A DNA stretch of 64,000 nt from a virus. Every line of letters begins with the position of its first letter. The first letter of the stretch is position 1. Below are positions 32,677 to 63,473 of the stretch, piece after piece. Where the stretch lies: the IMG/VR virus record IMGVR_UViG_3300032287_003731, positions 32,954 to 96,953 of that record, one strand, 5' to 3'. The notes under the pieces were generated by a model. It did no database searches. It had not been told where the DNA came from and was given only the letters and a program-made list of their open reading frames with translations. Position numbers and translations under genes: made by a program.

Positions 32677-34317
32677 TTAAAGAGTATTTAAACCAGCAAC
32701 ATACACCTTACCATAATAATCAGGTCTAATCATCTTCTTAGCGTAACGAGTCATCAAACCTTTACGTGGAGTGAAGGTATTAGGATCGTAAAGAAGTGGA
32801 GTCATGATTAAAGGCACATATGGAGCGAATACAGCACCGCACTCAAGGAACTGAGCACCTTTGTAACCCATGAGGATTACATTCTCAGTCATGTATGGGT
32901 TCTTGTAAACCTTGTAACGGCTATTAAGTGAACCAACTTTCTGAATACCGAAGTTGAATTCCATCTTTTCGCCATCACCGTCAGAAGCAAATCCAGGAAT
33001 AGATTCGAGGATTGTAGCTACGGTTGGTGAAGTTACGAGGAAGTTAGCGCCACCGCGGAGAGTTAACTGATGGATTGTGTTAGAAACTTTCTGGAGTTTA
33101 GTACCGAGGGTTTGGAACCAACCACCTTGGGTATTGTAGAAACCTAAGTTGCTATTAGTAACACCAGATGTACCTACAGCTTGGTTGTTAACTGCTGACC
33201 AATATTCAGTTGTGAAAGCGTTTTGAATTAACATATCAAGGATTTCGAGGTCGATTTCCATTGAAATGTACTGTGATAAAATGCCAGTTAATTCAGCTTC
33301 AGCATCTACGCTATGGTAAGCGTTAAGATCCTGAGCGAATTCTGGAGTCCATTGTGCTTTTAACTTACGAGTTTTAGCAACAATAGCTTCAGATTTCAAC
33401 TGAACGTTAATCTCTGGGATAGAAATTGTAGTATTGCTTAAAGCATTGGGATAACCACCATTACCATTAGCAGTACCCGCACCACCACCAACTGATTGGT
33501 CTTCAAAATCACCGCGATCAGCAGGATCTGGAGCTACAGAGAAGAATAATGTAGTACTAGGCATAGCACCACCGGTCACAGCAGGAACAACAGAACCAGT
33601 CACAATGAAGGAAGCTGTGTTGTTAGATACAGTAGTAAATTGCTGTAAAATATCAGTAGCAGTAATAGAACCAGAAGTAAATACAAATGATCTAACAGCA
33701 TTCTGATCAGCAGGAGTTGGAAGGGGAACTAATACTTTTTTCCAACCAGTAGCAGCAGAAGCTGAATAGTTAGAATCCAAGTTAAAGTCAGCCCATGTGG
33801 TTGAACCGGTTAAAGCAGCAACAGAAGCTGAGAACTGGTTGATTGAGTAACCAAACTTACCAGCACCATAGAGTGACTGAGAAGCAATATCGGTTACATT
33901 TGTGGTTGCGTTAGCACCATAAAGTGAACCACCGTTAGTGAATGGCTTAACACCAGTGCCGTATTTGAAATCAAGATAGAATACGAGACCTGAAGGTAAG
34001 TTCATTGGCTGTACGCTAACGAATTCTTTAGCAGCGATTTCACCGAATACGCGGCGAACTAATGGTAAAGCTACACCAGCCCAGTTTTCTGAGTTGTAAC
34101 CACCACCAGACATTGAGGTAGTACCGCCAGTAGCTGAAGCTTCGGTGATTAATTGCTTGGCTTGGTTCTCGAGGAGAATAGCCATTGTGTTTTTGTCTTG
34201 AGTGTTACCGATACCTTCTAAAAGACCGGATTTAGCCCACTTACCAGACAAACGTTGTGCATCTTCCATTATAACTTTATATTGGTTAGATGACTCGAGT
34301 AATTGTTGTACGTTCAT
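32677..34317 (-). CDS. 23: Major capsid protein (gp23)
   Basis: 546 aa; T4 gp23 is 521 aa. Family features include NSENWAGVALPLVRRVFGEI, AKEFVSVQPMNLPSGLVFYL, an insertion-domain region, TRKLKAQWTPEFAQDLNAYH with AELTGILSQYISMEIDLEIL, and the C-terminal FTPRKGLMTRYAKKMIRPDY. The N-terminal 59 residues are helical and end in QLITE, an (I/L)-x-E site. Cleavage by the gp21-type protease would leave ASATGG as the new N-terminus. There is no promoter octamer or Shine-Dalgarno in the 31-base gap before it, so it is probably translated from the scaffold transcript. Confidence 0.96.
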   Translation of the reverse strand: MNVQQLLESSNQYKVIMEDAQRLSGKWAKSGLLEGIGNTQDKNTMAILLENQAKQLITEASATGGTTSMSGGGYNSENWAGVALPLVRRVFGEIAAKEFVSVQPMNLPSGLVFYLDFKYGTGVKPFTNGGSLYGANATTNVTDIASQSLYGAGKFGYSINQFSASVAALTGSTTWADFNLDSNYSASAATGWKKVLVPLPTPADQNAVRSFVFTSGSITATDILQQFTTVSNNTASFIVTGSVVPAVTGGAMPSTTLFFSVAPDPADRGDFEDQSVGGGAGTANGNGGYPNALSNTTISIPEINVQLKSEAIVAKTRKLKAQWTPEFAQDLNAYHSVDAEAELTGILSQYISMEIDLEILDMLIQNAFTTEYWSAVNNQAVGTSGVTNSNLGFYNTQGGWFQTLGTKLQKVSNTIHQLTLRGGANFLVTSPTVATILESIPGFASDGDGEKMEFNFGIQKVGSLNSRYKVYKNPYMTENVILMGYKGAQFLECGAVFAPYVPLIMTPLLYDPNTFTPRKGLMTRYAKKMIRPDYYGKVYVAGLNTL

Positions 34318-34348: not shown

Positions 34349-35425
34349 TTAGTGTTTTTTAATACCAGCAAGCATTTGCCATCTTGACATTGTTTCGTCT
34401 ACTTCGACGATTGGTTTTTTAGCAATACCTGCTGCTTTAGAAGCAAAGCCCATAGATTCTTTAATTGAAGACTTAGCGGATTTTACAATAGCAACGTCCA
34501 TAGTTTCATAAATCATCTTAGCTTCTTTAATAGTAGCTGCTTTGTCGAATTGAGCAATTACTTTAAGTTTTTGTGATTCGGTTAAGTTTTTGGCTTTGAA
34601 AATCTTATTTACATAGAGTAATTTAGCGTTAAGAAGATTAACTTCGTTAAGTTCTGAGCGAAGAGTGTGGATAGTAGCAATAGCTTCATCTAACTCTTTT
34701 TTCATTTTATCATCTTCTTCTTTAGCTTTTTTCATTTTTTTCTTAGCTTCGTACATTCCGCCTTCTTCGTATTCTGTTTCTTCAGAATAGTCTTCGCCTA
34801 AAGCGTCAAGTTCAGCTAATAATTCTTCTAAATCAAGATCTTCTTCCATTTCTTCTCCTTCATCAGATACATCAACAGACATTTCATCACCAGCTTCCAT
34901 TTCACCGCCGCCCATGTCTTCCATGCCGCCGTCTTCCATTTCGCTAGAAATAATGTCTTTGATAATCATTTTTAATTCTTCTACTGAAAGATCAGCTACA
35001 GTTTCAGATTCGGTAGATTCAGATTCTTCTTCTTTACCTTCTTCTTCTTCTTCTTTAGCTTCTTCCATTTTTTCTTTTTCTTCTTCTTTTTTAGCTTCTT
35101 CAAGTTCAGCTAAAATTTCAGATAAATCGAAGTCTTCTTCTAACTCATCACCACCTTCTTCAAGAGCAGCACCAGTTGCACGATATCTGTCTTGAATTTT
35201 ATCACTAGTTTCAGAAGGATAGAAGCCTTCTTTCATTTTTTCGTCGTCCTTGTCTTTTGCTTCTTCTAAATCTTCACCTTCCATTTCTTGCAATTTAGCA
35301 GCAAGCATAGATTGAAGTCTAGGGGCAAGAGCTTCTTCAAGAGCGACTTTTGCGTTGGCTAAAGCAGTTTCACGAATAGCTTTAGCGTCAGCAATTGCTT
35401 CTTTGAACAAATCTTGGTTTGTCAT
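34349..35425 (-). CDS. 22: Prohead core scaffold protein (gp22-like)
   Basis: 358 aa, extremely acidic (long Glu runs at residues ~100-145 and 190-225). Helical N- and C-terminal regions flank the acidic part; the C-terminal core is LLNAKLLYVNKIFKAKN LTESQK. It has many (I/L)-x-E sites (AIRE, ALEE, KLQE, DLEE), as expected of a scaffold digested by the gp21 protease after assembly. The last residues, SRWQMLAGIKKH, resemble the leader core of small internal proteins in this window. The start is preceded by a clear Shine-Dalgarno (AAGGAG, 9 bases before ATG), nearly unique here. A 112-base structured leader separates it from its octamer. Confidence 0.9.
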   Translation of the reverse strand: MTNQDLFKEAIADAKAIRETALANAKVALEEALAPRLQSMLAAKLQEMEGEDLEEAKDKDDEKMKEGFYPSETSDKIQDRYRATGAALEEGGDELEEDFDLSEILAELEEAKKEEEKEKMEEAKEEEEEGKEEESESTESETVADLSVEELKMIIKDIISSEMEDGGMEDMGGGEMEAGDEMSVDVSDEGEEMEEDLDLEELLAELDALGEDYSEETEYEEGGMYEAKKKMKKAKEEDDKMKKELDEAIATIHTLRSELNEVNLLNAKLLYVNKIFKAKNLTESQKLKVIAQFDKAATIKEAKMIYETMDVAIVKSAKSSIKESMGFASKAAGIAKKPIVEVDETMSRWQMLAGIKKH

Positions 35426-35572: not shown

Positions 35573-36178
35573 TTAACATAAAGGACAAACTCCAGTATGT
35601 TGACAAATAATTTCTGTTATTAAACTATTTACTTTACTATAATCTTTAATAGAAGCATATTGCTTTGATTCAGCTAATTTCATATAAGCCTGCGGAGTAC
35701 TAGGTACTGATACTAAATCCCAACATAATAATTCAAAATCATCTTGTACTTCAACTGTTTCACCAAGTTGTTTAACACTACCCATACCACGTGATGAAAT
35801 TCCAAGTGGAATACCTGATAGTACAAGTGCTTTAGCAATATTGCCAGCAGGTGTAGGTAATAATTGTAATTTACCCATTAAGTCATTTCCTTTCCACCAT
35901 ACTTCTGTAATAAGATGAGAAGTATTGGCTAAGTTTACAACAGAGGCTTCAGGATGATCGAGTTCTCCTAAAGCAGTGCGTGTTTTTATTGGTCCTTCAG
36001 CGTATTTTTTTACTTCTCTTTCAAGTATTTCGCGAGGATATACACGACCATTGCCATTTTTTTGCTCAGCTTCTTGTAATTTACCAACTAAAGTGACAGT
36101 ACCATTATTTGCTTTACCTTCAACTAAAGTAAGTTTAGCGTGTTGGAAAGGAGTATGGTCTATAAGTAATGATTTCAT
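35573..36178 (-). CDS. 21: Prohead maturation protease (gp21)
   Basis: 201 aa, serine protease of the T4 gp21 / herpesvirus-protease-like fold. Catalytic candidates are His75 in GELDHPEAS and Ser128/129 in GISSRGMG; Asp154 lies in CWDLVSVPSTPQAY, the conserved C-terminal motif. The N-terminus has the usual KNGNGRVYPREILEREV. A C-terminal LITE (186-189) could be an autocleavage site. It cuts scaffold, capsid protein and, I infer, leader-bearing internal proteins at (I/L)-x-E. No octamer lies directly upstream, so it is probably transcribed with the preceding genes. Confidence 0.93.
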   Translation of the reverse strand: MKSLLIDHTPFQHAKLTLVEGKANNGTVTLVGKLQEAEQKNGNGRVYPREILEREVKKYAEGPIKTRTALGELDHPEASVVNLANTSHLITEVWWKGNDLMGKLQLLPTPAGNIAKALVLSGIPLGISSRGMGSVKQLGETVEVQDDFELLCWDLVSVPSTPQAYMKLAESKQYASIKDYSKVNSLITEIICQHTGVCPLC

Positions 36179-37116: not shown

Positions 37117-37392
37117 TTAGCTGCCTTTTTCTTTTTTATCTTTTTTATCTTTGGCATATGCTGCTCTAGCTTTATCAAAATCAATACCTGCTCTTAAAGC
37201 TCCATTCTTTCTAATATCATTTTTTACAGCTTCTTTACTAGCATATTTAAAATCAGGATACTTTTTTTCAAAATCTGCTATTTGTTGCAATAAATCTTCC
37301 TCAGCTTTGATTTGCTCAGGAGTTCTTTTTTTAATTGTTATTTCTTGAAGTATTACTTCTTTTATTAATTCACGCAATTCACTTTTTTTCAT
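37117..37392 (-). CDS. Small leader-bearing internal protein, 91 aa
   Basis: Begins MKKSELRELIKEVILQE, an amphipathic helix with an L-Q-E site, the same leader type as the 316-aa gene at 44467. The remainder is a helical, Lys-rich domain (IKAEEDLLQQIADFEKKYPD, then KYASKEAVKNDIRKNGALRA) ending in KDKKDKKEKGS. It looks like a small DNA- or core-binding protein packaged in the prohead. It has its own octamer 27 bases upstream and is followed after 13 bases by the DUF5661-like gene. Confidence 0.7.
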   Translation of the reverse strand: MKKSELRELIKEVILQEITIKKRTPEQIKAEEDLLQQIADFEKKYPDFKYASKEAVKNDIRKNGALRAGIDFDKARAAYAKDKKDKKEKGS

Positions 37393-37570: not shown

Positions 37571-38104
37571 TCACGAAAAAGGTAATTCAGAAGCCGGAAT
37601 AGAAGTTGATTTTATTTTCATTTCTTTTTTAATCATATTTAAAATATAATCAACAGATCCTAATCCTAATTCTTGTAAATTTTCAATAGCTTTTATGGTT
37701 GTATTAATTTCTTTATTTATATATTCTTCTCTTTCAATATCCATAGAAGTATCAGCTTCGTTAATTGGTTTATCAACGAGTATTTCAAATATAGCTTGAG
37801 CTAATTTACCGTAATTACCTTTATCTAAGCTATCTTTCATATAACTGCTGATTCTAGTAGTTGTTCCATTACTAAGTTTCACATTATTATCTTTTCTAAA
37901 AGAAAACCTGTATGTAGCCTCTATTATTTTCATTATATCATCTTCTTGACTAGTACTTATTTCTTGCCCGATTTCTTTTAAATATAATTTTTTTACTTGA
38001 TCTACAATACTATTATATATACTTTCATTTTCATTCATATTATTCTCCTTCAAAATACCAGCTAATTGCTGCATTCTATAAATTTCATTAAGTTGTTTTT
38101 TCAT
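37571..38104 (-). CDS. Leader-bearing internal protein candidate, 177 aa
   Basis: Begins MKKQLNEIYRMQQLAGILKE, the class-A leader shared with genes at 51543, 55193, 55604 and 56308. It ends in the (I/L)-x-E site ILKE|N. The mature part is not recognised. It is mostly helical (YNSIVDQVKKLYLKEIGQEI, IMKIIEATYRFSFRKDNNVK, AIENLQELGLGSVDYILNMI). The gene sits in the head module and overlaps the preceding gene's stop by 4 bases. I infer a protein packaged inside the head. It has no octamer of its own. Confidence 0.75.
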   Translation of the reverse strand: MKKQLNEIYRMQQLAGILKENNMNENESIYNSIVDQVKKLYLKEIGQEISTSQEDDIMKIIEATYRFSFRKDNNVKLSNGTTTRISSYMKDSLDKGNYGKLAQAIFEILVDKPINEADTSMDIEREEYINKEINTTIKAIENLQELGLGSVDYILNMIKKEMKIKSTSIPASELPFS

Positions 38105-41443: not shown

Positions 41444-42121
41444 CTATAAATATTTATTAGTCTTATTTCTATTGCCTAATTCATTATATCCAAACGACTC
41501 AGCAATTTTTGTTGTTTTAAATAATGGCTGCGTATTAGTATAATGAAAGCATTGTTTTTGTTGTTCTATATCTGTTAGATTAAAGGAATCACATGGCTTG
41601 ATATGATCAATTTCCCAAATATCACCATGATTATTCCAATTCATTTCTGGTTTAAATTTAGATTCAAGATATTGTTTAAAAGTATCTATTGTACAACCTA
41701 TTAATTTTATAGCACTTTTAGTTTTTAAATTTAGTTTTAAAGCATTATATAACCTAAGTCTTAACAAACAAGATAGTTTAAAATTAATATCAGTATCATA
41801 TTTAATTTTCCAATATTTTACTAATTTATCTTTATTATTACTTCTCCATTCTTTACTATATAATTTTCTATTTTCACTTAACCAGTATTCTTTATTATTA
41901 TTATATTTTTCTTTATTATATTGTGATATTTTATTTTTATTTTTATTTGACCATTTTTTAGAAGTTAATTGAAAGTATTTATTTCCTAATTTTTTATTAT
42001 TTAAAATAGTATATTCATTTTTACAAGATTTACAAATACCTTCATATCCTGATTTATTTCTATTATTTTTATAAAAATTATTTAATTCTTTTTCTTGGTT
42101 ACATTTAATACAAATTTTCAT
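41444..42121 (-). CDS. HNH homing endonuclease between terminase and portal
   Basis: 225 aa. The N-terminal zinc finger is MKICIKCNQEKELNNFYKNN followed by CKSCKNEY. A Lys/Asn/Tyr-rich linker follows. The C-terminal HNH-type core is WEIDHIKPCDSFNLTDIEQQ with CFHYTNTQPLFKTTKIAES: Asp-His of the motif, then His and Asn residues before the TQPL box. It sits between two of the most conserved late genes, which are typical homing sites. The octamer is 14 bases upstream. Composition is even more AT-rich than its neighbours. Confidence 0.88.
   Translation of the reverse strand: MKICIKCNQEKELNNFYKNNRNKSGYEGICKSCKNEYTILNNKKLGNKYFQLTSKKWSNKNKNKISQYNKEKYNNNKEYWLSENRKLYSKEWRSNNKDKLVKYWKIKYDTDINFKLSCLLRLRLYNALKLNLKTKSAIKLIGCTIDTFKQYLESKFKPEMNWNNHGDIWEIDHIKPCDSFNLTDIEQQKQCFHYTNTQPLFKTTKIAESFGYNELGNRNKTNKYL
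41446..41453 (-). promoter_or_regulatory. Late-promoter-like octamer, portal
   Basis: ATATTTAT followed by A on the coding strand, 20 bases before the ATG at 41425, within the last codons of the HNH gene. Confidence 0.6.
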
Positions 42122-44466: not shown

Positions 44467-45417
44467 TTATTTTATAATGCCTGCGTAGTATTGCATTTTA
44501 TTTTTATTCCATTCGTCTAATTCATCCTTTTTAGATTGACGCTTCTGTAAATATTCAGAACTAGCTACTAAATTATTTACACGTTGTTCCAAACTTGCTT
44601 TTAAATCCATTAAACGTTTTTCCTCTGTAGATGATTTGTCTTTAATATCACCAGTACCAGCCATAAATTTAGCACGCTTCATTCTATTTAGATCACTTTT
44701 TACTTTATTTAAACGATCTGCAAGATCAGTATATTTCATAAAAGTGTTATAATCTTCATCTGATAGTCCAGAAGCGGATGAAGGGGTAGGTACTTTTCCT
44801 AATTCAGGAGTAGATTCTTCTTCGTCGCCTGCTGCTTTAGCTTGAGCAAATGATGCTTCAATTTCTTCATCACTTAAATCACCAGAAACAATACCTGTTT
44901 CTTCTTCTGGTTCTACTTCTTCACCAGGTTCTGCTTTAGGTTTCATAAATTGAGGGACAACACCAGCGGTTGTTGGTGCTAGAATACCAAGTCTAATCAT
45001 ATCACGAGCATAGTCAGATATGCGTGGTTGAGGAACATTAAATTTTTCTCTAGCTATTTTAGTAATATCGGCAGGACCATTATCTTTTATATAATCTATG
45101 ATACCATTAACCCACACCATTCGTTTAGATGAGCCAACATAAGGTAATTCAGAAAGTTTATCAGCATAGTCGTCACTTACTTTATAGATAATAGGTTGAC
45201 GAGCCATTTCTTTTAGTTTTTTAGTTCCCATTGTAACACTAGCTACATTAGGATCTATTTTCAATTTATTAATTGTAGGAGCATCTGAGGGGTCAATATC
45301 TAGAATTTTATCTCCTCTATTTTTATCTTTAAAATCGATAGTAGTTGATTGAGTAGCTTCATTCATTACTTCATCAATAACTTCACGTATGAGTTCTTGT
45401 AATTCTGATTTTTTCAT
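44467..45417 (-). CDS. Leader-bearing protein with winged-helix segment, 316 aa
   Basis: Begins MKKSELQELIREVIDEVMNE, with I-R-E and I-D-E sites, matching the leader of the 91-aa gene at 37117. Residues ~95-145 (VWVNGIIDYIKDNGPADITK, then REKFNVPQPRISDYARDMIR) read as a winged helix-turn-helix, with a turn before the recognition helix. A Pro/Glu-rich acidic linker follows, then a C-terminal coiled coil (LADRLNKVKSDLNRMKRAKF). I infer a DNA-binding protein carried in the head. It lies just upstream of the membrane protein and terminase genes; its start region overlaps the 79-aa gene by 4 bases. Confidence 0.7.
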   Translation of the reverse strand: MKKSELQELIREVIDEVMNEATQSTTIDFKDKNRGDKILDIDPSDAPTINKLKIDPNVASVTMGTKKLKEMARQPIIYKVSDDYADKLSELPYVGSSKRMVWVNGIIDYIKDNGPADITKIAREKFNVPQPRISDYARDMIRLGILAPTTAGVVPQFMKPKAEPGEEVEPEEETGIVSGDLSDEEIEASFAQAKAAGDEEESTPELGKVPTPSSASGLSDEDYNTFMKYTDLADRLNKVKSDLNRMKRAKFMAGTGDIKDKSSTEEKRLMDLKASLEQRVNNLVASSEYLQKRQSKKDELDEWNKNKMQYYAGIIK

Positions 45418-51542: not shown

Positions 51543-52025
51543 TTAAGCTCCTAATGAATCATAAAAAGCATCCCATAATTCCTCTTCTTCATATTCTATT
51601 TCAATATCTTTTCCACTTTTAGAATATACATATCCTATTACTTCAAATTCAGCATCACTGCATCCTTCTGGATCAAGAATTAAACCTGGAATATTTTTTT
51701 CTAATTCTAATTTAGGGTCAGGCATACTTAAAATCCATTTTTTATCATCTGGAAGATCAATAAAATTGGAATACCCTATAATTTCTTTTACTTTTTTTCC
51801 ATTTATTAATATAAAATCATCTGCTAGTCCTTTTTCACAATAAAAGAATTTATAATCTTTTTCATTTTGATAATAATTAGGAGTATATTTAACTACTAAA
51901 TCATCTTCAAAATTAAAATCTTCAATTTCTCCTTTATCATTAATAGAAACTTCATCTAATTGTGATTCTTTTAAAATACCAGCTAACTGCTGCATTCTAT
52001 GAATTTCGTTAAGTTGCTTTTTCAT
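51543..52025 (-). CDS. Leader-bearing internal protein candidate, 160 aa
   Basis: Begins MKKQLNEIHRMQQLAGILKE, nearly identical to the leader of the 177-aa head-module gene and ending at ILKE|S. The mature domain is acidic and beta-rich (VSINDKGEIEDFNFEDDLVV, YFCEKGLADDFILINGKKVK, LELEKNIPGLILDPEGCSD) ending in an acidic helix (EYEEEELWDAFYDSLGA). Not recognised. Own octamer 17 bases upstream and own terminator, so a single-gene late transcript. Confidence 0.75.
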   Translation of the reverse strand: MKKQLNEIHRMQQLAGILKESQLDEVSINDKGEIEDFNFEDDLVVKYTPNYYQNEKDYKFFYCEKGLADDFILINGKKVKEIIGYSNFIDLPDDKKWILSMPDPKLELEKNIPGLILDPEGCSDAEFEVIGYVYSKSGKDIEIEYEEEELWDAFYDSLGA

Positions 52026-52072: not shown

Positions 52073-52846
52073 TTATTTTGCCAAAATGCTTTCAGCAACA
52101 TAAATACCATGCGCACCGCTAACGGTAATACCACGAGCTGAAAGTGCATCACCTACAAAGTGTACATATGGATATTCAGTTAATGATAAATCATCATAAT
52201 TAACTAACGGTTCCGGTGATAAGTATTTTACTTCAGGAATGTACATACCCCAATCATCACCAAATTCAAATACTTTATTCATTGATAATATAAAATCATG
52301 AATATAAGTAGCATATTCACCTAATACTTCATAAAACCTAACCAAATTATCTACAGGATAAGCAGATACAGTTGTTCCCTCGGATGTTAATCCAGGTTGA
52401 CGAGTTTTGTTTGGTGAATAATAAGTACCAGTTCCATTAATTTGTAGTTTTTGAACAATATCTCTACTCCAAGCAAATGGATCTTCAATACCTTTGATTT
52501 CCATTAATATACCAAAATTAGTCATTTGGTTTTCGAATTCTTTACCTTTTTTGGCGTGTCCGTTGTAGCTAACGTCTCCATAAGTTTCTTCCACTGCAAC
52601 GTAAGCTGCATTGTTGTTAGTACAAAAGCTACGGAGAGATACCTTATCGAATTTTTGATATAGTTTAAAATCATATGATATATCAATTAGTTTTTGAAAA
52701 TACTTTTGTGGGCTTTCAAATCTCACTCCAATCTGCACAGCGCGAGCTTCAGTTGGTAATTGTTTTTCTCTCACTATTTTTTGAGTTAAATCCATACCAG
52801 CTTTACCAGTACCATAAATTAAAGTATCAAATTTTATTTTTTTCAT
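52073..52846 (-). CDS. FAD-dependent dehydrogenase, C-terminal fragment of a split gene
   Basis: 257 aa beginning MKKIKFDTLIYGTGKAGMDL. The start matches a strand and G-T-G-K-A-G loop that normally sit in mid-protein. It continues EARAVQIGVRFESPQKYFQ, a Y-G-D-V segment, an NKTRQPGLTSEGTTVSAYPV block and a C-terminal YVHFVGDALSARGITVSGAH that fits FAD contact. Together with the 173-aa gene at 53722 it would make a ~430-aa enzyme of the COG2509 (FAD-dependent dehydrogenase) type. An endonuclease gene lies exactly in between. Whether the two halves are spliced, or assemble from separate chains, cannot be told from sequence. Confidence 0.8.
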   Translation of the reverse strand: MKKIKFDTLIYGTGKAGMDLTQKIVREKQLPTEARAVQIGVRFESPQKYFQKLIDISYDFKLYQKFDKVSLRSFCTNNNAAYVAVEETYGDVSYNGHAKKGKEFENQMTNFGILMEIKGIEDPFAWSRDIVQKLQINGTGTYYSPNKTRQPGLTSEGTTVSAYPVDNLVRFYEVLGEYATYIHDFILSMNKVFEFGDDWGMYIPEVKYLSPEPLVNYDDLSLTEYPYVHFVGDALSARGITVSGAHGIYVAESILAK

Positions 52847-52847
52847 A

Positions 52848-53648
52848 TTAATTGTTTTTATATTTCCATTTATAACCTAATACAGATTTTCTTTTTCCTT
52901 GACAACATAAACATATTCCTCCATTGCTTTTTAATCCTGTTGTATCCTCAAATTCTTGAACAGAATCCCACTCTTTAATAAAATTATCTTCTAAATCATA
53001 TTGAAGGACAGGTTTTCTTCTTTTTTGAGAAACCATTTGATTTCTATATGTCCAATCTATATCTCGTTTTTTAAAAGTATCACTTTTCTTCTTTCTAGTC
53101 TCTTCAGAATCTTTTATACCTAATCTAACTTTTTTACCTATCATAGACTTACTTTTCTTCTCACTGCTTTCCTTACTCATCTTTTTGCCTTTATTAGGTG
53201 ATATATGACCTTTTAATCCTTCAGATATTTTTCTTTTAGATTCTTCAGAATGTTTCATTCCAGTAGTACCAGCTTTAACACCACATTCAGCTATATTAGC
53301 TAATATATAACCTTTATTTCGCAAATCTAATTCTATTTCTCTTTCTTTTAATAATGCTTCATTTTCACTTAATCCTTCAAATAATATTTTAGATTCAAAT
53401 ACACCATTATTTTTATTTACAATATTATGCCAGTATTGATTTCTACCATATTTTGATCTATCTCGTTTAGATATTCCTTTTCCAACATAAAACGGTTTAT
53501 TCATATCAGGTCGTATATGAATATAAACTATAAAGTTATTGTTTTGGTTTTTTTTCGTGATATTTTTGTTTGAGTTTTTCATCGATTTTTTCTTTATTAG
53601 ACCAATAATATTTCTTACTATATTCTCGTTGTTTGAGAATACGTTCAT
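52848..53648 (-). CDS. GIY-YIG homing endonuclease inserted in FAD dehydrogenase gene
   Basis: 266 aa from the first start; the likelier start is the ATG at 53582 (MKNSNKNITKKNQNNNF), since the first 22 residues overlap a small ORF. The nuclease domain runs from NNFIVYIHIRPDMNKPFYVG KGI through GRNQYWHNIVNKNNG to NEALLKEREIELDLRNKGY. NUMOD3-type repeats follow (MKHSEESKRKISEGLKGHIS, SKESSEKKSKSMIG). A C-terminal NUMOD1 element is VLQYDLEDNFIKEWDSVQEF. It separates the two halves of a FAD dehydrogenase, with only one base between its stop and the start of the downstream half. Confidence 0.85.
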   Translation of the reverse strand: MNVFSNNENIVRNIIGLIKKKSMKNSNKNITKKNQNNNFIVYIHIRPDMNKPFYVGKGISKRDRSKYGRNQYWHNIVNKNNGVFESKILFEGLSENEALLKEREIELDLRNKGYILANIAECGVKAGTTGMKHSEESKRKISEGLKGHISPNKGKKMSKESSEKKSKSMIGKKVRLGIKDSEETRKKKSDTFKKRDIDWTYRNQMVSQKRRKPVLQYDLEDNFIKEWDSVQEFEDTTGLKSNGGICLCCQGKRKSVLGYKWKYKNN

Positions 53649-53679
53649 CTTCTGTTTGATATTTTTTAATACGTCCCAT
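53536..53679 (-). CDS. Tiny ORF upstream of inserted endonuclease; possible homing-endonuclease remnant
   Basis: 47 aa, ATG at 53679. MGRIKKYQTEDERILKQREY continues SKKYYWSNKEKIDEKLKQKY. 'KKYYxxNKEKIxEKxKxKY' is a pattern typical of the N-terminal linker in HNH-type homing enzymes. It overlaps the endonuclease in another frame and has an octamer 5 bases upstream. It may be a leftover of an earlier mobile element or a short coding leader; function unknown. Confidence 0.45.
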   Translation of the reverse strand: MGRIKKYQTEDERILKQREYSKKYYWSNKEKIDEKLKQKYHEKKPKQ

Positions 53680-53684
53680 CTATT

Positions 53685-53692
53685 ATAAATAT
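53685..53692 (-). promoter_or_regulatory. Late-promoter-like octamer inside the split-gene insertion
   Basis: ATATTTAT followed by A on the coding strand, 5 bases before the ATG at 53679. A 12-base direct repeat (ATCTAAGAAAAA, twice, 53697-53721) lies just beyond it, against the stop of the N-terminal FAD fragment. Confidence 0.55.
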
Positions 53693-53721
53693 TATAGATC
53701 TAAGAAAAAATCTAAGAAAAA

Positions 53722-54243
53722 TCAATTATTCTTTAATATTATTTCTTTAGTTTCAAAATCAATATCTTCAACTTCAGTATTCCACATGAATCTAACACCT
53801 TTATCAACTAAATATTGATACCAACGTTTTCCTATTTCATGCAAGTAGTCTGTACCTATGTGGTATACGGGGAATAAGCGAAGTCCAAAATACGGCTTAA
53901 TAAAATCTGGTTCTGCTTGTGGGTTAGAGTACATTATTTTAGAAGGATCAGGATGGAAGCGTTTCCACATCTCAATTGATTGATTCATTAAATTATATGC
54001 TTTTTTTTCACCACAATACTTACTTAACTGACCTCCAATTGAAGTATGATAAGTAAGTTTACCATCTGAAAATCCTCCTGCTCCTGCAAAACCACACATT
54101 ACTTCTTCTGGTTTGCGAACATAAGGATCATTCCCTTTATCAATAATAGTAATTAATTCTCCAGGATAATTATTATCTATTAATTTTAATGCAGCACTAA
54201 TACCAGCTACACCACTTCCAACAATTACAATTTTATTCTTCAT
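53722..54243 (-). CDS. FAD-dependent dehydrogenase, N-terminal fragment of a split gene
   Basis: 173 aa. N-terminal Rossmann motif GSGVAG (9-14) after MKNKIVIV. It continues RKPEEVMCGFAGAGGFSDGK LTYHTSIGG, the Cys-Gly-rich block diagnostic of COG2509-type FAD dehydrogenases, and ends FETKEIILKNN-stop, in the middle of a sheet. The remaining two-thirds of the enzyme are at 52073-52846, beyond an inserted homing endonuclease. The start overlaps the end of the 88-aa gene by 11 bases. Redox role in the phage unknown. Confidence 0.85.
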   Translation of the reverse strand: MKNKIVIVGSGVAGISAALKLIDNNYPGELITIIDKGNDPYVRKPEEVMCGFAGAGGFSDGKLTYHTSIGGQLSKYCGEKKAYNLMNQSIEMWKRFHPDPSKIMYSNPQAEPDFIKPYFGLRLFPVYHIGTDYLHEIGKRWYQYLVDKGVRFMWNTEVEDIDFETKEIILKNN

Positions 54244-54519: not shown

Positions 54520-55065
54520 TTAATAATTTATTTTTGCCATTTCAAATTTTGAAGGTCTAATATTCCAATTATCAATATATCTTATATTTTTTTCTTTTTT
54601 ACACCATATCGCTATAGTAGAAAGACTTATATTTAATTTATTAGCTGCTTCAGAACAAGATTCATATATCTCTCCGGTTTTTATATTTTGTATTCGTTTT
54701 CCTAGTTTTCTTTTAAATTTATTTTCCATCCAAAGTTTTTTCATTTTTTCACTTTTAATACGTTTAGCTTCTTCAGGATATATATAAGGTTTATGATAAC
54801 CTCCTCCTATGCAATTCATACCATTTAAAACACAGTTATACTGTTTTATCCAGTATTGTTCTTTTTTATTTAGTTCTTCTTCTTTACATTCTTCTATTAT
54901 TTCAAAAGAATGATAAAACCATCCATATTTTTTTAAAGATTCATATAATTTAGTTTGTTCTTTACAATAATGCTTTTTATATGTTTCAAATCTTTTTTCT
55001 ATATTAGTTGATTGACCAATATATATTTCTTTTTCAGGGTTAGTTATTTTATAAATACCTATCAT
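54520..55065 (-). CDS. GIY-YIG homing endonuclease
   Basis: 181 aa. GIYKITNPEKEIYIGQSTN gives the GIY and YIG strands, followed by KRFETYKKHYCKEQTKLYES LKKYG, FEIIEECKEEELNKKEQYWI with the metal-binding Glu, then CVLNGMNCIGGGYHKPYIYP. A C-terminal NUMOD1-like helix-turn-helix is SCSEAANKLNISLSTIAIWC. It is freestanding between the leader-bearing 113-aa gene and the Pro/Glu-rich gene. Its start is embedded in an AT-rich imperfect hairpin with the octamer 13 bases upstream. Confidence 0.9.
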   Translation of the reverse strand: MIGIYKITNPEKEIYIGQSTNIEKRFETYKKHYCKEQTKLYESLKKYGWFYHSFEIIEECKEEELNKKEQYWIKQYNCVLNGMNCIGGGYHKPYIYPEEAKRIKSEKMKKLWMENKFKRKLGKRIQNIKTGEIYESCSEAANKLNISLSTIAIWCKKEKNIRYIDNWNIRPSKFEMAKINY

Positions 55066-55090: not shown

Positions 55091-55130
55091 AAAAAAAATG
55101 GAGTAGTGGCTGTTTTAGGGCCACTACTCC
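55091..55130 (-). terminator. Strong terminator before GIY-YIG gene
   Basis: GGAGTAGTGGC / GCCACTACTCC, 11-bp perfect stem with a 9-base loop, followed by nine T on the coding strand. It closes the cargo-type gene group. Confidence 0.92.
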
Positions 55131-55156
55131 GATTTATATAAATCCTCTAATGAGGC

Positions 55157-55182
55157 GAACAGGCAATGAATCTGTTTTATAT
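55157..55182 (-). repeat. Intergenic repeat, copy 1
   Basis: 26-base element GAACAGGCAATGAATCTGTT plus TTATAT, with a 5-bp AACAG/CTGTT stem. It lies 10 bases past the stop of the 113-aa gene. One base differs from copies 2 and 3. Confidence 0.75.
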
Positions 55183-55192
55183 ATTTATATTA

Positions 55193-55534
55193 TTATAAAT
55201 AATTATTATAATATATAACTTTACCTGCTATATTTGCTGATTTTACTTTATTATATGGATCATTTTCAGGAAAAAGTTCTAACATATGTTCTTTACTAAA
55301 AGAAACATCTATTCCTGAGTTATCATCAGTACCTGCTGTAGCTACTAATGGATCACCCATAATTTCAAATTCAGAACCAGGATCACCTATTTTTTGAATA
55401 AATTCATCCATATTAGCGTTCAAAAATGAAGCAATATTTTTATCTTCATTCATTAATGATTCTTGATATTCACTTTCAGTGATTAATCCAGCGATAAGCT
55501 GCATTCTTTTAATTTCGTTAATTTGTTTTTTCAT
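55193..55534 (-). CDS. Leader-bearing small protein, 113 aa (tandem cargo 1)
   Basis: The first 30 residues (MKKQINEIKRMQLIAGLITE and ten more, ending SLMNE) are identical to those of the next gene upstream, down to the DNA level. Then an unrelated body follows: DKNIASFLNANMDEFIQKIG, VATAGTDDNSGIDVSFSKEH. The leader has (I/L)-x-E sites (LITE|S). It is the third member of a tandem array of leader-bearing genes. Function not recognised. Octamer 22 bases upstream; strong terminator downstream. Confidence 0.7.
   Translation of the reverse strand: MKKQINEIKRMQLIAGLITESEYQESLMNEDKNIASFLNANMDEFIQKIGDPGSEFEIMGDPLVATAGTDDNSGIDVSFSKEHMLELFPENDPYNKVKSANIAGKVIYYNNYL
55445..55534 (-). repeat. 90-bp leader repeat, copy 1
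   Basis: Encodes the first 30 residues of the 113-aa protein. By eye it is base-for-base identical to 56156-56245. Confidence 0.85.
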
Positions 55535-55556
55535 TTTTTTTTTTTGTTATATGTTA

Positions 55557-55564
55557 ATAAATAT
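55557..55564 (-). promoter_or_regulatory. Late-promoter-like octamer, 113-aa gene
   Basis: ATATTTAT on the coding strand, 22 bases before the ATG at 55534, followed by a poly-T tract upstream of the start. Confidence 0.65.
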
Positions 55565-55566
55565 CA

Positions 55567-55592
55567 GAACAGGCAATAAATCTGTTTTATAT
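55567..55592 (-). repeat. Intergenic repeat, copy 2
   Basis: Same 26-base element as 56275-56300, between the stop of the 213-aa gene and the octamer of the 113-aa gene. May be a short terminator or processing signal. Confidence 0.75.
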
Positions 55593-55603
55593 GTATTATT
55601 ATT

Positions 55604-56245
55604 TTATACTAATTCAATTCCCATTTCTTTTAACTTTTTTATAAAACTCATAATTTTTTGATTATCTACATCATCAAAGTCAGCTTCAAAAGCATCTTTT
55701 CCAGTTAAATCAGTTAAAATACCCATCCACTCTTCAGTTCCTGATTCTATTTCTTTGCCTCCCATTGATTCAAAATAATCATCATCTACTCCATTTTGAT
55801 TTAAAATATTAAGAACTTCTTCTTCAGACATTTGCTTATTTACTGATGAAATATTGTTAGGGGTTACTCTATTGGATTTTCTCCATGTAATTTTCACATC
55901 ACGGCCATATTTTATTTTAGCTGCTTTTGTTACAGCTTGTTCAAAACGAACACCTAATGCAAGATATGCGTTTTTATTTTCCCAATAGTTTTTAGGATCT
56001 CTTGGTCCTGGTATATAAATACTCTTCATAAAATCAGCTTCATTATCAGTTTCTAATTCTATTTCAAAAGTATTAGAATCAGCATCGTAAATACCATAGT
56101 CGTCTACATTATTGGGATTTATAAGAGTTTTTCTTAAAGTTTTATCAATTTCCCATTCATTCATTAATGATTCTTGATATTCACTTTCAGTGATTAATCC
56201 AGCGATAAGCTGCATTCTTTTAATTTCGTTAATTTGTTTTTTCAT
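55604..56245 (-). CDS. Leader-bearing small protein, 213 aa (tandem cargo 2)
   Basis: Identical 30-residue leader to the 113-aa gene. The mature part is an acidic domain (WEIDKTLRKTLINPNNVDDY, DSNTFEIELETDNEADFMKS, ALGVRFEQAVTKAAKIKYGR) with EEVLNILNQNGVDDDYFESM and IMSFIKKLKEMGIELV at the C-terminus. No family recognised. The fact that the leader is duplicated while the bodies differ argues that the leader is a portable module. Octamer 19 bases upstream. Confidence 0.7.
   Translation of the reverse strand: MKKQINEIKRMQLIAGLITESEYQESLMNEWEIDKTLRKTLINPNNVDDYGIYDADSNTFEIELETDNEADFMKSIYIPGPRDPKNYWENKNAYLALGVRFEQAVTKAAKIKYGRDVKITWRKSNRVTPNNISSVNKQMSEEEVLNILNQNGVDDDYFESMGGKEIESGTEEWMGILTDLTGKDAFEADFDDVDNQKIMSFIKKLKEMGIELV
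56156..56245 (-). repeat. 90-bp leader repeat, copy 2
   Basis: Encodes the first 30 residues of the 213-aa protein; partner of 55445-55534. Sequence on both sides of the pair (octamer, poly-T, intergenic element) is also similar. Confidence 0.85.
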
Positions 56246-56264
56246 TTTTTTTGTTATATATTAA

Positions 56265-56272
56265 ATAAATAT
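56265..56272 (-). promoter_or_regulatory. Late-promoter-like octamer, 213-aa gene
   Basis: ATATTTAT on the coding strand, 19 bases before the ATG at 56245. Confidence 0.65.
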
Positions 56273-56274
56273 CT

Positions 56275-56300
56275 GAACAGGCAATAAATCTGTTTTATAT
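56275..56300 (-). repeat. Intergenic repeat, copy 3
   Basis: 26-base element identical to copy 2, 7 bases past the stop of the 110-aa gene and next to the octamer of the 213-aa gene. Confidence 0.75.
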
Positions 56301-56307
56301 GTTTATA

Positions 56308-56640
56308 TTATTTTTGAATACGATCTTGTATTTCTTTTAATACTGATTTATCATGTATTGATATTGCAGGAGCACCATATCCTGAATCTGGCGTTAGTAT
56401 ACAAACGTAATTACTTCCTTCAAATACCACAGCATTTATTGTATTAGTTTCTATATCTGTTAATGTTCCTAATACTGTGCAATCATCTTTAAGTCCGGCG
56501 CTAAGATCTCCATCTGCTGGTGAATAGGCTCCTAAATTTTGTCCTGGTTGAAAGATAGTTACTTCTTCGTTTAGTTGGTTTTCTTTTAAAATACCAGCTA
56601 ATTGCTGTATTCTTTTAATTTCGTTAATTTGCTCTTTCAT
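56308..56640 (-). CDS. Leader-bearing small protein, 110 aa (tandem cargo 3)
   Basis: Leader MKEQINEIKRIQQLAGILKE, a diverged relative of the other class-A leaders, ending at ILKE|N. The mature body is beta-rich: VTIFQPGQNLGAYSPADGDL, KDDCTVLGTLTDIETNTINA and SNYVCILTPDSGYGAPAISI. Not recognised. It starts a tandem run of three leader-bearing genes, each followed by the same short intergenic element. Octamer 19 bases upstream. Confidence 0.7.
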   Translation of the reverse strand: MKEQINEIKRIQQLAGILKENQLNEEVTIFQPGQNLGAYSPADGDLSAGLKDDCTVLGTLTDIETNTINAVVFEGSNYVCILTPDSGYGAPAISIHDKSVLKEIQDRIQK

Positions 56641-56649
56641 TTTTTTTTG

Positions 56650-57129
56650 TTATATATTAATAAATATCCAAGATGGCGTATTTCCTAATTTTTTCCAACT
56701 TAACCCTTTAACAGCTATTTTATCTTTAATATAAAACTGCTTATAAGCAATAATAGTATCACTATTCTTATACTCATCAGGCATACATTGTGGTGGGGGA
56801 GTAAACCCATTATCGGGTATATTAGGTTCATTATCACGGCACCATTCAAGTACATCTTGTGTTTTATGGTGTTTACCATAACGTTTTGTAAATTCACTAC
56901 AAATTTCAAGACCATGTTGTACAAGCCAACGATAGTGTTGAATTGATTGGCGAGTCCAAATTGTTGATGGATGATTAAAATGAGCACGCTTATATGGTGC
57001 TTGTGAACCTACTGCCCAATGTGTTGTACAGCACATTTGAGCTGATTCGATTTGCATTTTACGAATATGATCATCGGCTAATTGTTGTGCTGCGATGATT
57101 GGGTCTTGATTGATATAAAATATATTCAT
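56650..57129 (-). CDS. MNIFYxxxDP family phage protein, 159 aa
   Basis: Starts MNIFYINQDPIIAAQQLADD and continues HIRKMQIESAQMCCTTHW, NHPSTIWTRQSIQHYRWLVQ, EFTKRYGKHHKTQDVLEWC and FTPPPQCMPDEYKNSDTIIA. The scheme 'MNIFY...DP...H..KM..E.AQ...T.H...NHP...W.R' is a widespread phage family, sometimes annotated as pyrimidine-dimer DNA glycosylase. I regard that function as unproven here. The C-terminus (KGLSWKKLGNTPSWIFINI) has a Trp-rich end. It is followed by the tandem cargo genes. Confidence 0.75.
   Translation of the reverse strand: MNIFYINQDPIIAAQQLADDHIRKMQIESAQMCCTTHWAVGSQAPYKRAHFNHPSTIWTRQSIQHYRWLVQHGLEICSEFTKRYGKHHKTQDVLEWCRDNEPNIPDNGFTPPPQCMPDEYKNSDTIIAYKQFYIKDKIAVKGLSWKKLGNTPSWIFINI
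56660..56667 (-). promoter_or_regulatory. Late-promoter-like octamer, 110-aa gene
   Basis: ATATTTAT on the coding strand, 19 bases before the ATG at 56640, inside the end of the 159-aa gene. Confidence 0.6.
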
Positions 57130-57164: not shown

Positions 57165-57518
57165 TTATTTTACGTTATATTCTTTGTTACCTACTTTTAG
57201 ATTAACTACAGTATCAAGATTTATCATTCTATAAGCTCGCTTTTGAATATCAAAAACAGGAATTAATCCTTTAGGTTCAGGATTATATGGTAGTTCACCT
57301 CCTTTAAGATAAGCTTTAACTCCTAAACGAGCATTCATAACTCGAGTAGTACCATCTGTTCTTTTAATAAAAGTTACTGTAAAAAATTTACCTTTAGTAT
57401 CTTTAATTACTTTTTTAGCTTGTTCATGGTTAATAGTTTCTACAGAAGAAGAATTTACATTCTGTTCTACAAGAATTCCTGCTAATTTTTGCCAACGTTT
57501 TGCTTCTTGTATTAACAT
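57165..57518 (-). CDS. Leader-bearing protein with SH3-like WTVxFxKRTxGxxRxM domain, 117 aa
   Basis: The leader MLIQEAKRWQKLAGILVEQN shares the R-W-Q-x-LAGI core with the class-A leaders and with the scaffold C-terminus, and ends in LVE|Q. The body, GKFFTVTFIKRTDGTTRVMN followed by ARLGVKAYLKGGELPYNPEP, KGLIPVFDIQKRAYRMINLD TVVNLK, is a small beta-barrel domain widespread in phages and of unknown function; nucleic-acid binding is plausible. Nothing upstream resembles the octamer, so it is probably transcribed with the exonuclease gene. Confidence 0.75.
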   Translation of the reverse strand: MLIQEAKRWQKLAGILVEQNVNSSSVETINHEQAKKVIKDTKGKFFTVTFIKRTDGTTRVMNARLGVKAYLKGGELPYNPEPKGLIPVFDIQKRAYRMINLDTVVNLKVGNKEYNVK

Positions 57519-58749: not shown

Positions 58750-59271
58750 TTAGGCTTCAGCGGGTGGTGTTTCTTCAGCTGGTGTTTCTGCTGGTGGAGT
58801 TTCTTCTACTGGTGTTGTTTCTGGAGCACTTGAAGTAGCAGTAAATGCTTCGGCTCCAGCATCAGGAGCAGGTACTTCTTTACCTTCTCCCTCAGCAATA
58901 GCATAATTTAATTCTAACACGTTTGCGATTGCTTGTTGTGCTCTTTCTAATTCGCCTAAGTTTTGCATATTATATTTTTTCCCTGCTACTTTAACAGTGA
59001 AATTCTTTTTACCATCATATATAATATTAAAATCTTGTTCGTTTATTAGTTTAGCAGTAAACGTAGTTGGTTTTGGTGCTATTATTTTAATATCACTAAT
59101 AAAACGACCAAAAGTAGGAGACATTAGATCTTCCATAACTTTCTTTAATCCGGGAAAGCGATATACAAGATACATAGCTTTAGTTGCCTTCTTTTCTCTT
59201 TCTTCTTGTTCAGCAAGAGCTTTACGAACAGCAACTTTAATGTACTTTTCTAATAATAGTTTTTTATTCAT
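58750..59271 (-). CDS. Head-type core protein with [17 protein letters not shown] leader, 173 aa
   Basis: Begins [28 protein letters not shown], an amphipathic helix with an L-A-E site, then a structured domain ([60 protein letters not shown]) and a Pro/Glu/Ala-rich acidic C-tail ([16 protein letters not shown]). I know of related proteins in marine phages but no defined function. The start overlaps the stop of the 150-aa gene by 8 bases. Confidence 0.7.
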
Positions 59272-59716: not shown

Positions 59717-60087
59717 TTTAAATACTTTAATTTGTAAAGTAAAGAATTAATTTCAGCTACTACTTCGTCAACTTGATTTTGAATGTATGAATCTTGAGCT
59801 ATCATTGATCTAGTTTTTTCAACAAACATACATAATGTAGTGAAATAAGCAATAATAGCATCACAGCTTTGATATTCTTGTAATGCTACATTACTATAAC
59901 CAGTAATGATACCATGTTTACCTTGATATGATTCAACTAATCCATCAATTATATCTACAATGTTATCGTAGTATTCATTTAATGCTTTATGAGCAGCAAA
60001 CGATGGTGTTTGAAGATGATAAACATGAGCTTGCGTACGAGACGCCATTAAAGCAGAAACAAATTGACCTATGATAGCGTTTTCCAT
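59713..60087 (-). CDS. Dps/ferritin-like small protein (DUF5856-like), 124 aa
   Basis: An all-helical protein: [59 protein letters not shown], and a final helix with [20 protein letters not shown]. The 'A-H-x-x-H ... FAxHKAL-x-x-YY' layout matches a Dps-like phage family (DUF5856), conserved beside other head-region genes. No metal site can be proven. Shares a 4-base overlap with the following gene and a one-base overlap with the one before it. Confidence 0.7.
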
Positions 60088-60533
60088 TATTTACCTTTTT
60101 TAGATTCCTTATCTTCTTTAGGTTCTTTTTCTTCTTTTTCTTCTTTAGGTTCTTCTTTTTTCTTAGTTGATTTTTTCTTTTTAGCTTCGACTTGTGGTTC
60201 AACTAAACCAATCATTTCTTTAATCTTTTGAGTTTCAGCTGTTACTTTACTTTCTACTTCGGTAATTTGATTATTAATCATTTCAGCTAATTTACCATGA
60301 GCAGCTTTAATTTTAGCCATTTCATTAACAAAACGCTGTAAATGAGCAAACTCAACTACTGGTTCAGCAGTACTTTCGTTAATAGCATATTGAGCTAAAG
60401 CTTCTTTCATTGCTTTTAAACTCGTTAATTCTTTTTTAAGTTCAACTAATTTACCACCGCTTTTTTTAGGACCTTCTTTTTTCACTTCAGCAATTACTTC
60501 TCTAACTGCTTGACGTATTTCATTAATTGTCAT
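60087..60533 (-). CDS. Leader-bearing coiled-coil protein with basic tail, 148 aa
   Basis: Begins MTINEIRQAVREVIAEVKKE, with an I-A-E site at 14-16. It then has two long helices (LVELKKELTSLKAMKEALAQ, HLQRFVNEMAKIKAAHGKLA) and a coiled coil (NNQITEVESKVTAETQKIKE), and a C-terminal Lys/Glu-rich tail (KKKKSTKKKEEPKEEKEEKE) of very low complexity. Not recognised; likely an internal head or core protein. Octamer 32 bases upstream. Confidence 0.7.
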   Translation of the reverse strand: MTINEIRQAVREVIAEVKKEGPKKSGGKLVELKKELTSLKAMKEALAQYAINESTAEPVVEFAHLQRFVNEMAKIKAAHGKLAEMINNQITEVESKVTAETQKIKEMIGLVEPQVEAKKKKSTKKKEEPKEEKEEKEPKEDKESKKGK

Positions 60534-60577: not shown

Positions 60578-60997
60578 TTATTTTGTTTTTCCCCATGATT
60601 TACCTTTACCTGGGTCGCCACATTGTGATGGTGTTGGGCGGCATGATGGGTATTTAGCTCGTTTTTCACCTTTTTGTCTACCACATGGTTTACATTTTTT
60701 CTTTCCATCTACTTCACGGCATGTGTTACAATCAACCCAACCGCCCGTTTTGCCTGGAGCGCCTTTACGTTTAAACCAAGTGCGGAGTGTTTCTTTTTGT
60801 TTTTCAGTTAGTTGATCAATATCATCTTCACCAATAAAAAACGCTTCAGATTTAATTCCTTTCCAAATATCACCTTTACGACATCTTACAATAGCACCTG
60901 ATTTGTATGCTGATGGTTTACTATAGCGACGATCAGCAATGCGTTTGCAGCGATCTTCTAATAGTATTTCTTTTAATATGTCGGTTAGTTTGATCAC
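60578..60997 (-). CDS. Cys-rich protein, DUF5872-like, 139 aa
   Basis: Starts MIKLTDILKEILLEDRCKRI, an (I/L)-x-E-bearing leader. The rest has TLRTWFKRKGAPGKTGGWVD CNTCREVDGKKKCKPCGRQ and GEKRAKYPSCRPTPSQCG, with paired Cys that may bind zinc. I recognise this pattern as a small, widespread phage protein domain (DUF5872-like), with no known biochemical role. It is strongly basic. The start overlaps the stop of the cupin-like gene by 4 bases. Confidence 0.75.
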   Translation of the reverse strand: MIKLTDILKEILLEDRCKRIADRRYSKPSAYKSGAIVRCRKGDIWKGIKSEAFFIGEDDIDQLTEKQKETLRTWFKRKGAPGKTGGWVDCNTCREVDGKKKCKPCGRQKGEKRAKYPSCRPTPSQCGDPGKGKSWGKTK

Positions 60998-61259: not shown

Positions 61260-61910
61260 TTATAAATATTCAACTTTATACTGTTTATTTTTAATAGTTT
61301 GTGCTTTTCCAATAAGTTGACATCTTACTGTTTCTGGATTTATTTGTAGATCAATTGCTAATTCATAGTAATTAGAGTAGGTTTTAATATATTTTCCTTC
61401 AACAGTATATAAAGCTACTTGTTTTCCTTTACCTTTATTAGGACTAATTCTACCTTTATGAGCAGCGGTTACTCCTGGTTTAGGACCGTCTAATTTACCT
61501 TTTTTAGAGTTAGGTTTACCTAGTTTTGCTACACGTATTTTTTCAATTTGCTCTTGTGGAAGTTTACGTCCTTTTAGTTTATTACTAGTTCTAAGTCTCC
61601 CTTCTAAAGGATGAATCGTTCCTTTATTAGATTTACTTATTTTTTGTTTAGTAGATTCTTTAACTACTTCTGGGCCCCCTCCTCCTGAATTTTTATTAAT
61701 TATGTTATAACCTAAATTTTTAAAAAGAGTTATATAATGTTTTTCCCAATATCTCCAATCATCTACATTATCTATAATTTCTAGTATAATAGAATCGTTA
61801 TTTAATTTTTTTCGATGTGCTCTTTCTCTTTGTTGGGGATTATTTTTTGTTTTTCCAACATAAAAGGGAATTTTATCCCCTTTATGTAAATAATATATTA
61901 TTGTTTCCAT
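61260..61910 (-). CDS. GIY-YIG homing endonuclease
   Basis: 216 aa. The nuclease domain is a diverged GIY-YIG: IIYYLHKGDKIPFYVGKTKN, RERAHRKKLNNDS, DDWRYWEKHYITLFKNLGYN with the catalytic Glu. NUMOD3-like Lys-rich repeats follow (STKQKISKSNKGTIHPLEGR, PQEQIEKIRVAKLGKPNSKK) and a C-terminal NUMOD1-like element (ALYTVEGKYIKTYSNYYELA). Freestanding between the cupin-like and 211-aa genes. The start ATG is in the 3' arm of a small hairpin containing the octamer. Confidence 0.87.
   Translation of the reverse strand: METIIYYLHKGDKIPFYVGKTKNNPQQRERAHRKKLNNDSIILEIIDNVDDWRYWEKHYITLFKNLGYNIINKNSGGGGPEVVKESTKQKISKSNKGTIHPLEGRLRTSNKLKGRKLPQEQIEKIRVAKLGKPNSKKGKLDGPKPGVTAAHKGRISPNKGKGKQVALYTVEGKYIKTYSNYYELAIDLQINPETVRCQLIGKAQTIKNKQYKVEYL
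61262..61269 (-). promoter_or_regulatory. Late-promoter-like octamer, cupin-like gene
   Basis: ATATTTAT followed by A on the coding strand, 7 bases before the ATG at 61254, in the last codons of the GIY-YIG gene. Confidence 0.5.
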
Positions 61911-63236: not shown

Positions 63237-63473
63237 TTATTTTGCGTGCCACCAGTTACAGCAATATTCATCTGCAGGAGCAGGTATTTTAGCATCACCA
63301 TTTCTCCATTTTAACCAATATTTGTTGTTACATAAATTACCTTCTTTAATCCAATATTCACAGTTAGTACACATTGAACCGCCTTTAGTTACACGCATGC
63401 CTGGTTTATGATTAGCAGGATATTCAACAGGTCTTTCTTTAGCTTCATTTATAAGATCTAATAATTTATGCAT
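63237..63473 (-). CDS. Leader-bearing Cys-rich (HiPIP-like) small protein, 78 aa
   Basis: Starts MHKLLDLINEAKERPVEYPA, with an I-N-E|A site that closely resembles the T4 internal-protein leader form. It continues GMRVTKGGSMCTNCEYWIKE, GNLCNNKYWLKWRNGDAKIP and DEYCCNWWHAK. The Cys spacing (CxxC ... C ... CC-W) resembles high-potential iron-sulfur proteins and could hold Fe-S or Zn. The gene precedes the amidase by 7 bases. Confidence 0.7.
   Translation of the reverse strand: MHKLLDLINEAKERPVEYPANHKPGMRVTKGGSMCTNCEYWIKEGNLCNNKYWLKWRNGDAKIPAPADEYCCNWWHAK

Follow-up and report, generated by a model that had tools for sequence, protein, structure and literature searches.

T4 provides a precedent for a capsid-targeting sequence (CTS), for cutting at L/I-X-E and for the loading of foreign cargo (PMC9026906, PMC3012670). 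T4 gp21 cleaves after (L/I)-X-E, and the first ten residues of IPIII are enough to load foreign proteins in T4 (PMC9026906). T4 needs IPIII on strain ECOR17, and its IPI inhibits a restriction enzyme (PMC9026906, PMC9391042). In P22 the C-terminus of the scaffold binds coat protein (PMC9965877).

The locus described here carries an N-terminal leader that can be compared with these systems. Like T4 IPI, IPII and IPIII, it is a short propeptide ending in (L/I)-x-E that stands on unrelated, variable bodies, and as in T4 the phage has gp20/21/22/23-type head genes. Unlike the T4 CTS, the tag here is about 20 residues long and its core matches the scaffold C-terminus, whereas the T4 gp22 tail differs; the leader profile is silent in T4, where no sequence likeness was detected. 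The internal proteins of T4 are basic but the leader bodies are acidic. The best reading of the sequences is that the leader matches the T4 CTS in function and is unrelated to it in sequence. The head proteins of phiKZ and SPN3US have propeptides that are cut at S/A-X-E. Removal of a propeptide by a gp21-related protease, here predicted, and redundant sites, here a second LNE or INE, are common to both, but the motif is different and here a single stereotyped short tag is found on many small proteins. The C-terminal helix-turn-helix of the P22 scaffold is the basis of engineered cargo loading. As in P22, the scaffold C-terminus would be a capsid-binding end that has been borrowed for cargo loading; unlike in P22, the arrangement is natural, the tag lies at the cargo N-terminus and is followed by a cutting site, and the binding is presumed. 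T4-type phages reportedly also possess mobile cassettes of a promoter and a stem-loop (PeSL), said to have been described by Arbiol in 2010 and Comeau in 2014. As with PeSL, where the promoter and stem-loop serve as short stretches of homology for gene shuffling, a promoter-like motif and a stem-loop lie between shuffled genes here, in the form of ATATTTATW and half of an element E at both junctions. Unlike PeSL, the unit also carries a coding leader, the promoter motif also stands ahead of structural genes and the stem-loop belongs to a pseudoknot RNA, of which it makes up half.

The duplicated leader and its portability

The window is the whole stretch of DNA that was analysed, 64,000 nucleotides, and corresponds to bases 32954-96953 of a 96,953-bp IMG/VR virus record (G000); almost every gene is on the minus strand. 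Judged by its genes, this uncultured phage is T4-like and Far-T4-like, with Flavobacterium phage immuto nearest. Its major capsid protein is gp23-type and is closest to that of immuto (58% identity), followed by Microcystis phage Mel-JY01 and Rhodothermus phage RM378. The genes for terminase, portal, tube, sheath, protease and capsid have matches in T4-type PHROG families and include a gp20/21/22/23-like head set (gp21-type protease, PHROG 207, E 3e-53; gp23-type shell, PHROG 138, E 1e-72). The Far-T4 neighbourhood has been described (PMC4360716), and the predicted hosts of the group are Bacteroidetes (PMC7198788). The leader array and the leader genes near it are as follows.

51543..52025, minus strand: 160-aa leader protein (leader profile)
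55193..55534, minus strand: 113-aa leader gene; leader residues 1-30 at 55445-55534; predicted cut after E20, between LITE and SEYQ
55445..55541, minus strand: exact 97-bp repeat, copy 1 (pairwise comparison)
55604..56245, minus strand: 213-aa leader gene; leader at 56156-56245, middle domain about residues 31-137, C-module about 138-213
56156..56252, minus strand: exact 97-bp repeat, copy 2 (pairwise comparison)
56308..56640, minus strand: 110-aa leader gene, the first of the array; diverged leader, with the predicted cut between MKEQINEIKRIQQLAGILKE and NQLNE
56650..57129, minus strand: 159-aa gene (PHROG 624), border of the leader array
57165..57518, minus strand: 117-aa protein with leader MLIQEAKRWQKLAGILVE (leader profile)

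The initial annotation had read 55445-55534 and 56156-56245 as identical, and pairwise alignment bears this out and places the limits of the exact repeat at 97 bp (55445-55541 and 56156-56252), that is, 90 bp of coding sequence plus the A-tract next to the ATG of each minus-strand gene. The low-coordinate edge falls precisely at the end of codon 30 in both genes. The 113- and 213-aa proteins had been said to share their first 30 residues and nothing obvious afterwards; in BLASTP residues 1-30 are identical (30/30) and the bodies, which are unrelated, have no significant similarity to each other (E 1.7). Upstream of the repeat about 45 bp of further homology continues at lower identity; there the A-run differs in length and a few bases are substituted. 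In the whole record the leader profile identifies six leader proteins, the 113/213-aa pair and those of 110, 117, 160 and 177 aa. A tblastn search of cultured phages with the 213-aa protein gave no match. The AlphaFold model of the 113-aa protein has a pLDDT of 56; that of the 213-aa protein is confident in the C-module only and has no fold match in PDB or BFVD.

The contig is metagenomic and an exact repeat could be an assembly artefact, but this is scarcely credible here: the flanks differ on both sides, with indel differences upstream, a usual read is longer than the repeat, similar arrays are found in independent contigs and the closely related contig L007 has two different leader copies of its own. 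The copies could also have been kept identical by gene conversion rather than by recent duplication, which is possible although somewhat doubtful. The two copies in G000 differ at 0/90 positions from each other and at 3/90 from either L007 copy, and the L007 copies differ at five positions in the first 33 nt and at one after, as partial conversion predicts. However, the extra bodies and the element E copies differ between G000 and L007, and units have therefore also been gained or lost.

The relatives carry the leader on other bodies. Between the same neighbours (the 159/160-aa gene and a GIY-YIG gene), L007 encodes two proteins with this leader: one of 116 aa whose body is unrelated, and one of 109 aa in which the leader is followed by nothing but the C-terminal module found in the 213-aa protein. 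The leader is preceded by the same 5' flank as in G000. This C-module is also found behind other leaders in L008, L009, L010 and L133, where the middles differ or are absent, and the 113-aa body stands behind a different leader in L170. In L210 the 159-aa orthologue abuts element E and the terminator with no leader gene in between. Because this leader stands on other bodies at the corresponding position in L007 and the L210 site is empty, comparison of these loci shows, beyond mere inference, the portability that had been proposed from the window's pair. The proposal that a promoter-plus-leader cassette was copied onto new cargo is supported by L007 and by the 79 groups of bodies described below; the direction and date of the copying we infer. 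The extra copies have a 5' flank (GATATTTATT.ATATA) that recurs at the 3' end of the 159/160-aa gene, and this suggests that copying ran outward from the first array position. The upstream 159-aa gene appears to have supplied, from its 3' end, the "promoter" part of the secondary copies, and the motif region at 56659..56667 is the apparent origin of the copied 5' flank.

Sequence reading also identified apparent GIY-YIG/HNH homing endonuclease genes at 3225-3932, 41444-42121, 52848-53648, 54520-55065 and 61260-61910. One of them adjoins the leader array, and such genes may drive recombination there. The GIY-YIG gene at 52848-53648 splits a FAD-dependent dehydrogenase gene (52073-54243) into two parts, 53722-54243 and 52073-52846; the gene is unsplit in L007:3170-4504 (444 aa).

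The promoter-like motif and element E

The intergenic features of the array are as follows.

55098..55182, minus strand: element E copy 3, complete, with stem-loop, 3' pseudoknot strand GTAGTG and terminator hairpin (55100-55130)
55556..55564, minus strand: promoter-like ATATTTATT, ahead of the 113-aa gene
55568..55592, minus strand: element E copy 2, 5' half only
56264..56272, minus strand: promoter-like ATATTTATT, ahead of the 213-aa gene
56276..56300, minus strand: element E copy 1, 5' half only
56659..56667, minus strand: promoter-like ATATTTATT, located in the 3'-terminal part of the 159-aa gene and ahead of the 110-aa leader gene

The octamer and poly-T tract of the initial annotation agree in position with the motif ATATTTATW and with the A-tract ahead of the ATG. 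ATATTTATW was found 30 times against 14 expected from dinucleotide shuffles. The label "promoter" gains support from the strand and position bias of ATATTTAT, which occurs 30 times on the coding strand and 4 times on the opposite strand, with 25 of the 30 situated 8-45 nt upstream of an ATG. The octamer ATATTTAT lies within 70 nt of 42% of leader genes versus 18% of other genes. The promoter-like motif precedes sheath, tube, portal and leader genes alike, and its place before the sheath, tube and portal genes suggests late expression.

The repeated 26-base intergenic element that had also been noted is present in three copies (AACAGGCAATRAATCTGTTTTATAT; 55158, 55568 and 56276) where shuffles predict none, and its 26-nt sequence is absent from the rest of the 96,953-bp record. 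Judged by pairing, a conserved RNA pseudoknot of Far-T4-like phages has this element as its 5' half. The RNA was found in 45 contigs (for example L183:3881, L210:2766 and L176:13129) and has a 6-bp stem, the loop ATTYATWGC and, further downstream, a strand with which this loop pairs. In 21 sequences the pairing holds in 97.8% of cells and five pairs are changed on both sides; none of 500 shuffles reaches this value and slid versions give 26-52%. Stem variants in leader loci also covary. The half by itself folds no better than shuffles, and Rfam gave nothing near element E at the gathering threshold. Element E is located shortly past a stop codon and ahead of a terminator at operon ends, where the 5' arm of the terminator overlaps the pseudoknot strand. 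In G000 and L183 the leader genes are inserted between the half copies and the complete element E. An integron-like cassette array was considered, since E flanks each gene, but was rejected, as integrase evidence is absent and the complete E is a terminator-linked RNA that is widespread without leader genes.

The leader peptide, the cutting site and the scaffold tail

The head genes that bear on the role of the leader are as follows.

32677..34317, minus strand: major capsid protein, gp23-type (PHROG match); N-terminal site between QLITE and AS (site reading)
34349..35425, minus strand: acidic scaffold protein in the gp22 position; its C-terminus MSRWQMLAGIKKH is the leader core (leader profile match)
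35573..36178, minus strand: head maturation protease, gp21-type (PHROG 207), with GELDHP and SSRG; tail site between SLITE and IICQ
37571..38104, minus strand: 177-aa leader protein within the head gene cluster (leader profile)

A scan of IMG/VR with the leader alignment yielded at least 103 distinct leader proteins with the core RMQxLAG(I/L), in which R, A and G are invariant by definition of the search pattern. A glutamate at +10, which lies outside the search pattern but was contained in the tblastn confirmation queries, is found in 99 of the 103 proteins collected and (L/I)-x-E in 94. Leaders from loci fetched by neither leader nor body have this glutamate in 17 of 20 cases. A second (L/I)xE-like site (LNE, INE, LMNE) is frequent five to ten residues past the first, and in the duplicated pair the repeat stops exactly at this second site. 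In the window's clade the protease, too, has the LITE of the leader in its C-terminal tail, and capsid N-termini carry LITE, LISE or LVTE; many relatives have V at P3 of the capsid site, and a clear tail site is absent from the immuto-group proteases.

The bodies behind the leader are small and acidic (median pI 4.57 versus 6.77 for neighbours), and 102 bodies from the 103 proteins form 79 unlinked clusters. Searches of the 103 proteins against Pfam, PHROGs and PADLOC gave almost no matches, with one weak match to DpdE. Counter-defence proteins and DNA mimics are often acidic, and the bodies would fit such roles, which is a guess. A secretion signal was considered for the leader and rejected since it has no hydrophobic core. 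No earlier account of this leader was found in the literature, which does not prove that none exists.

The scaffold protein adjoining the major capsid gene ends in the leader core, without the glutamate, in nearly all relatives. Of 71 genes called immediately ahead of the capsid gene, 61 have an AG(I/L) tail and most of the others LAN(I) or LAF; at least one of the 71 (L019) is another ORF for capsid protein rather than a scaffold. Among 2,438 called ORFs the motif is N-terminal in 108, C-terminal in 89 and mid-protein in 10, the last being mostly mis-called starts, apparently. Glutamate is present at +10 in 101 of the 108 N-terminal cases versus none of the 89 C-terminal cases, a zero that is partly built in because scaffold tails often stop before +10. 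Most of the C-terminal cases are scaffolds, and in 77 of the 89 the major capsid gene is at most two genes away. A leader profile constructed with no scaffold sequences matches the tails of the scaffolds in G000, immuto, Mel-JY01 and others; in the whole of the window's own record its seventh and last match is the scaffold C-terminal tail. Mel-JY01 has the scaffold tail and no leader detected by the profile. In the single contig of L016/L112 the scaffold tail is LANI and the leader LAG, which suggests that covariation of leader and tail may not be strict.

It could be argued that the leader docks at another virion or assembly site, such as the portal, the neck or a core protein, and that its likeness to the scaffold tail reflects shared short-helix composition. 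The motif is short, tail-like C-termini are also found on non-scaffold proteins (L102, L112, L182, L201) and the T4 CTS binds the core and not the shell (PMC9026906). However, the only further match of the scaffold-free profile in its own record is the scaffold tail, which it also matches in many other records, and the motif is almost absent from mid-protein positions, which makes docking elsewhere unlikely, though worth keeping in mind. That the repeat is purely regulatory, supplying a promoter, a translation start and first codons for expression while the peptide has no job, is highly improbable. The promoter-like motif, A-tract and leader do move as one, but variability is 0.46 at third codon positions versus 0.25 and 0.09 at the others, with R, Q, A, G and E conserved, and selection therefore acts on the peptide. 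The position of the glutamate is fixed, and the same peptide core is found at scaffold C-termini, where it would be useless for initiation.

Other proteins have related or comparable termini. L102:4402-5193, L112:1380-2324, L182:4138-4377 and L201:348-1076 end in a LAG or LAN tail without the cutting site; their N-termini are not scaffold-like, the capsid gene does not adjoin them and they are possible C-terminally tagged head proteins. A related RLQELAGV/I is part of an N-terminal leader with an altered cutting site in L060:5234-5548, L076:4880-5575 and L148:1499-1840, the first two of which lie upstream of the capsid gene and are possibly a core prohead protein. A short amphipathic helix followed by (L/I)xE, of the MKKSELRELIKEVILQE type, starts the window proteins at 37117-37392, 44467-45417, 60087-60533, 58750-59271, 38101-38646, 60578-60997 and 63237-63473, possibly a second class of head-targeting leader.

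Proposed role of the leader in Far-T4-like phages

It is quite probable that the leader is a capsid-targeting sequence, a copy of the scaffold tail that is removed by cutting within the prohead, and that the body is packaged and injected. The leader proteins would be made late in infection, together with virion proteins. The scaffold-tail-like core RMQxLAGI/L would take the binding place of the scaffold tail, and the protein would thereby enter the prohead. By analogy with T4, the gp21-type protease would cut after the fixed glutamate ((L/I)-x-E, residue 20), and the mature body would remain beside the DNA in the head, from which it would be injected to act at an early stage in the next host. 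The tag could be copied ahead of new bodies by short-homology recombination, because it is self-contained and travels with promoter-like sequence, and the 113/213-aa pair would be a recent case. The function of the leader, its copy at the scaffold C-terminus and the identity of the repeated element as half of a pseudoknot RNA go beyond the initial annotation.

On balance, a wider proposal is also favoured, if with less assurance: in Far-T4-like phages a natural tag of scaffold tail plus cutting site may be a general address label, by which tagged proteins are packed, freed and injected. Each phage would carry several such effectors, mostly small acidic proteins without known relatives, swapped as cassettes beside a pseudoknot RNA. 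The suggested origin of the tag is that the capsid-binding end of the scaffold was borrowed and a protease site added. The idea is open to direct test in Flavobacterium phage immuto, which is in culture and encodes two such proteins (111675-112139 and 25061-25456). If it is true, the tag would make sequence alone sufficient for listing what proteins an abundant group of uncultured phages carries into its hosts, a set that is rich in likely counter-defence genes.
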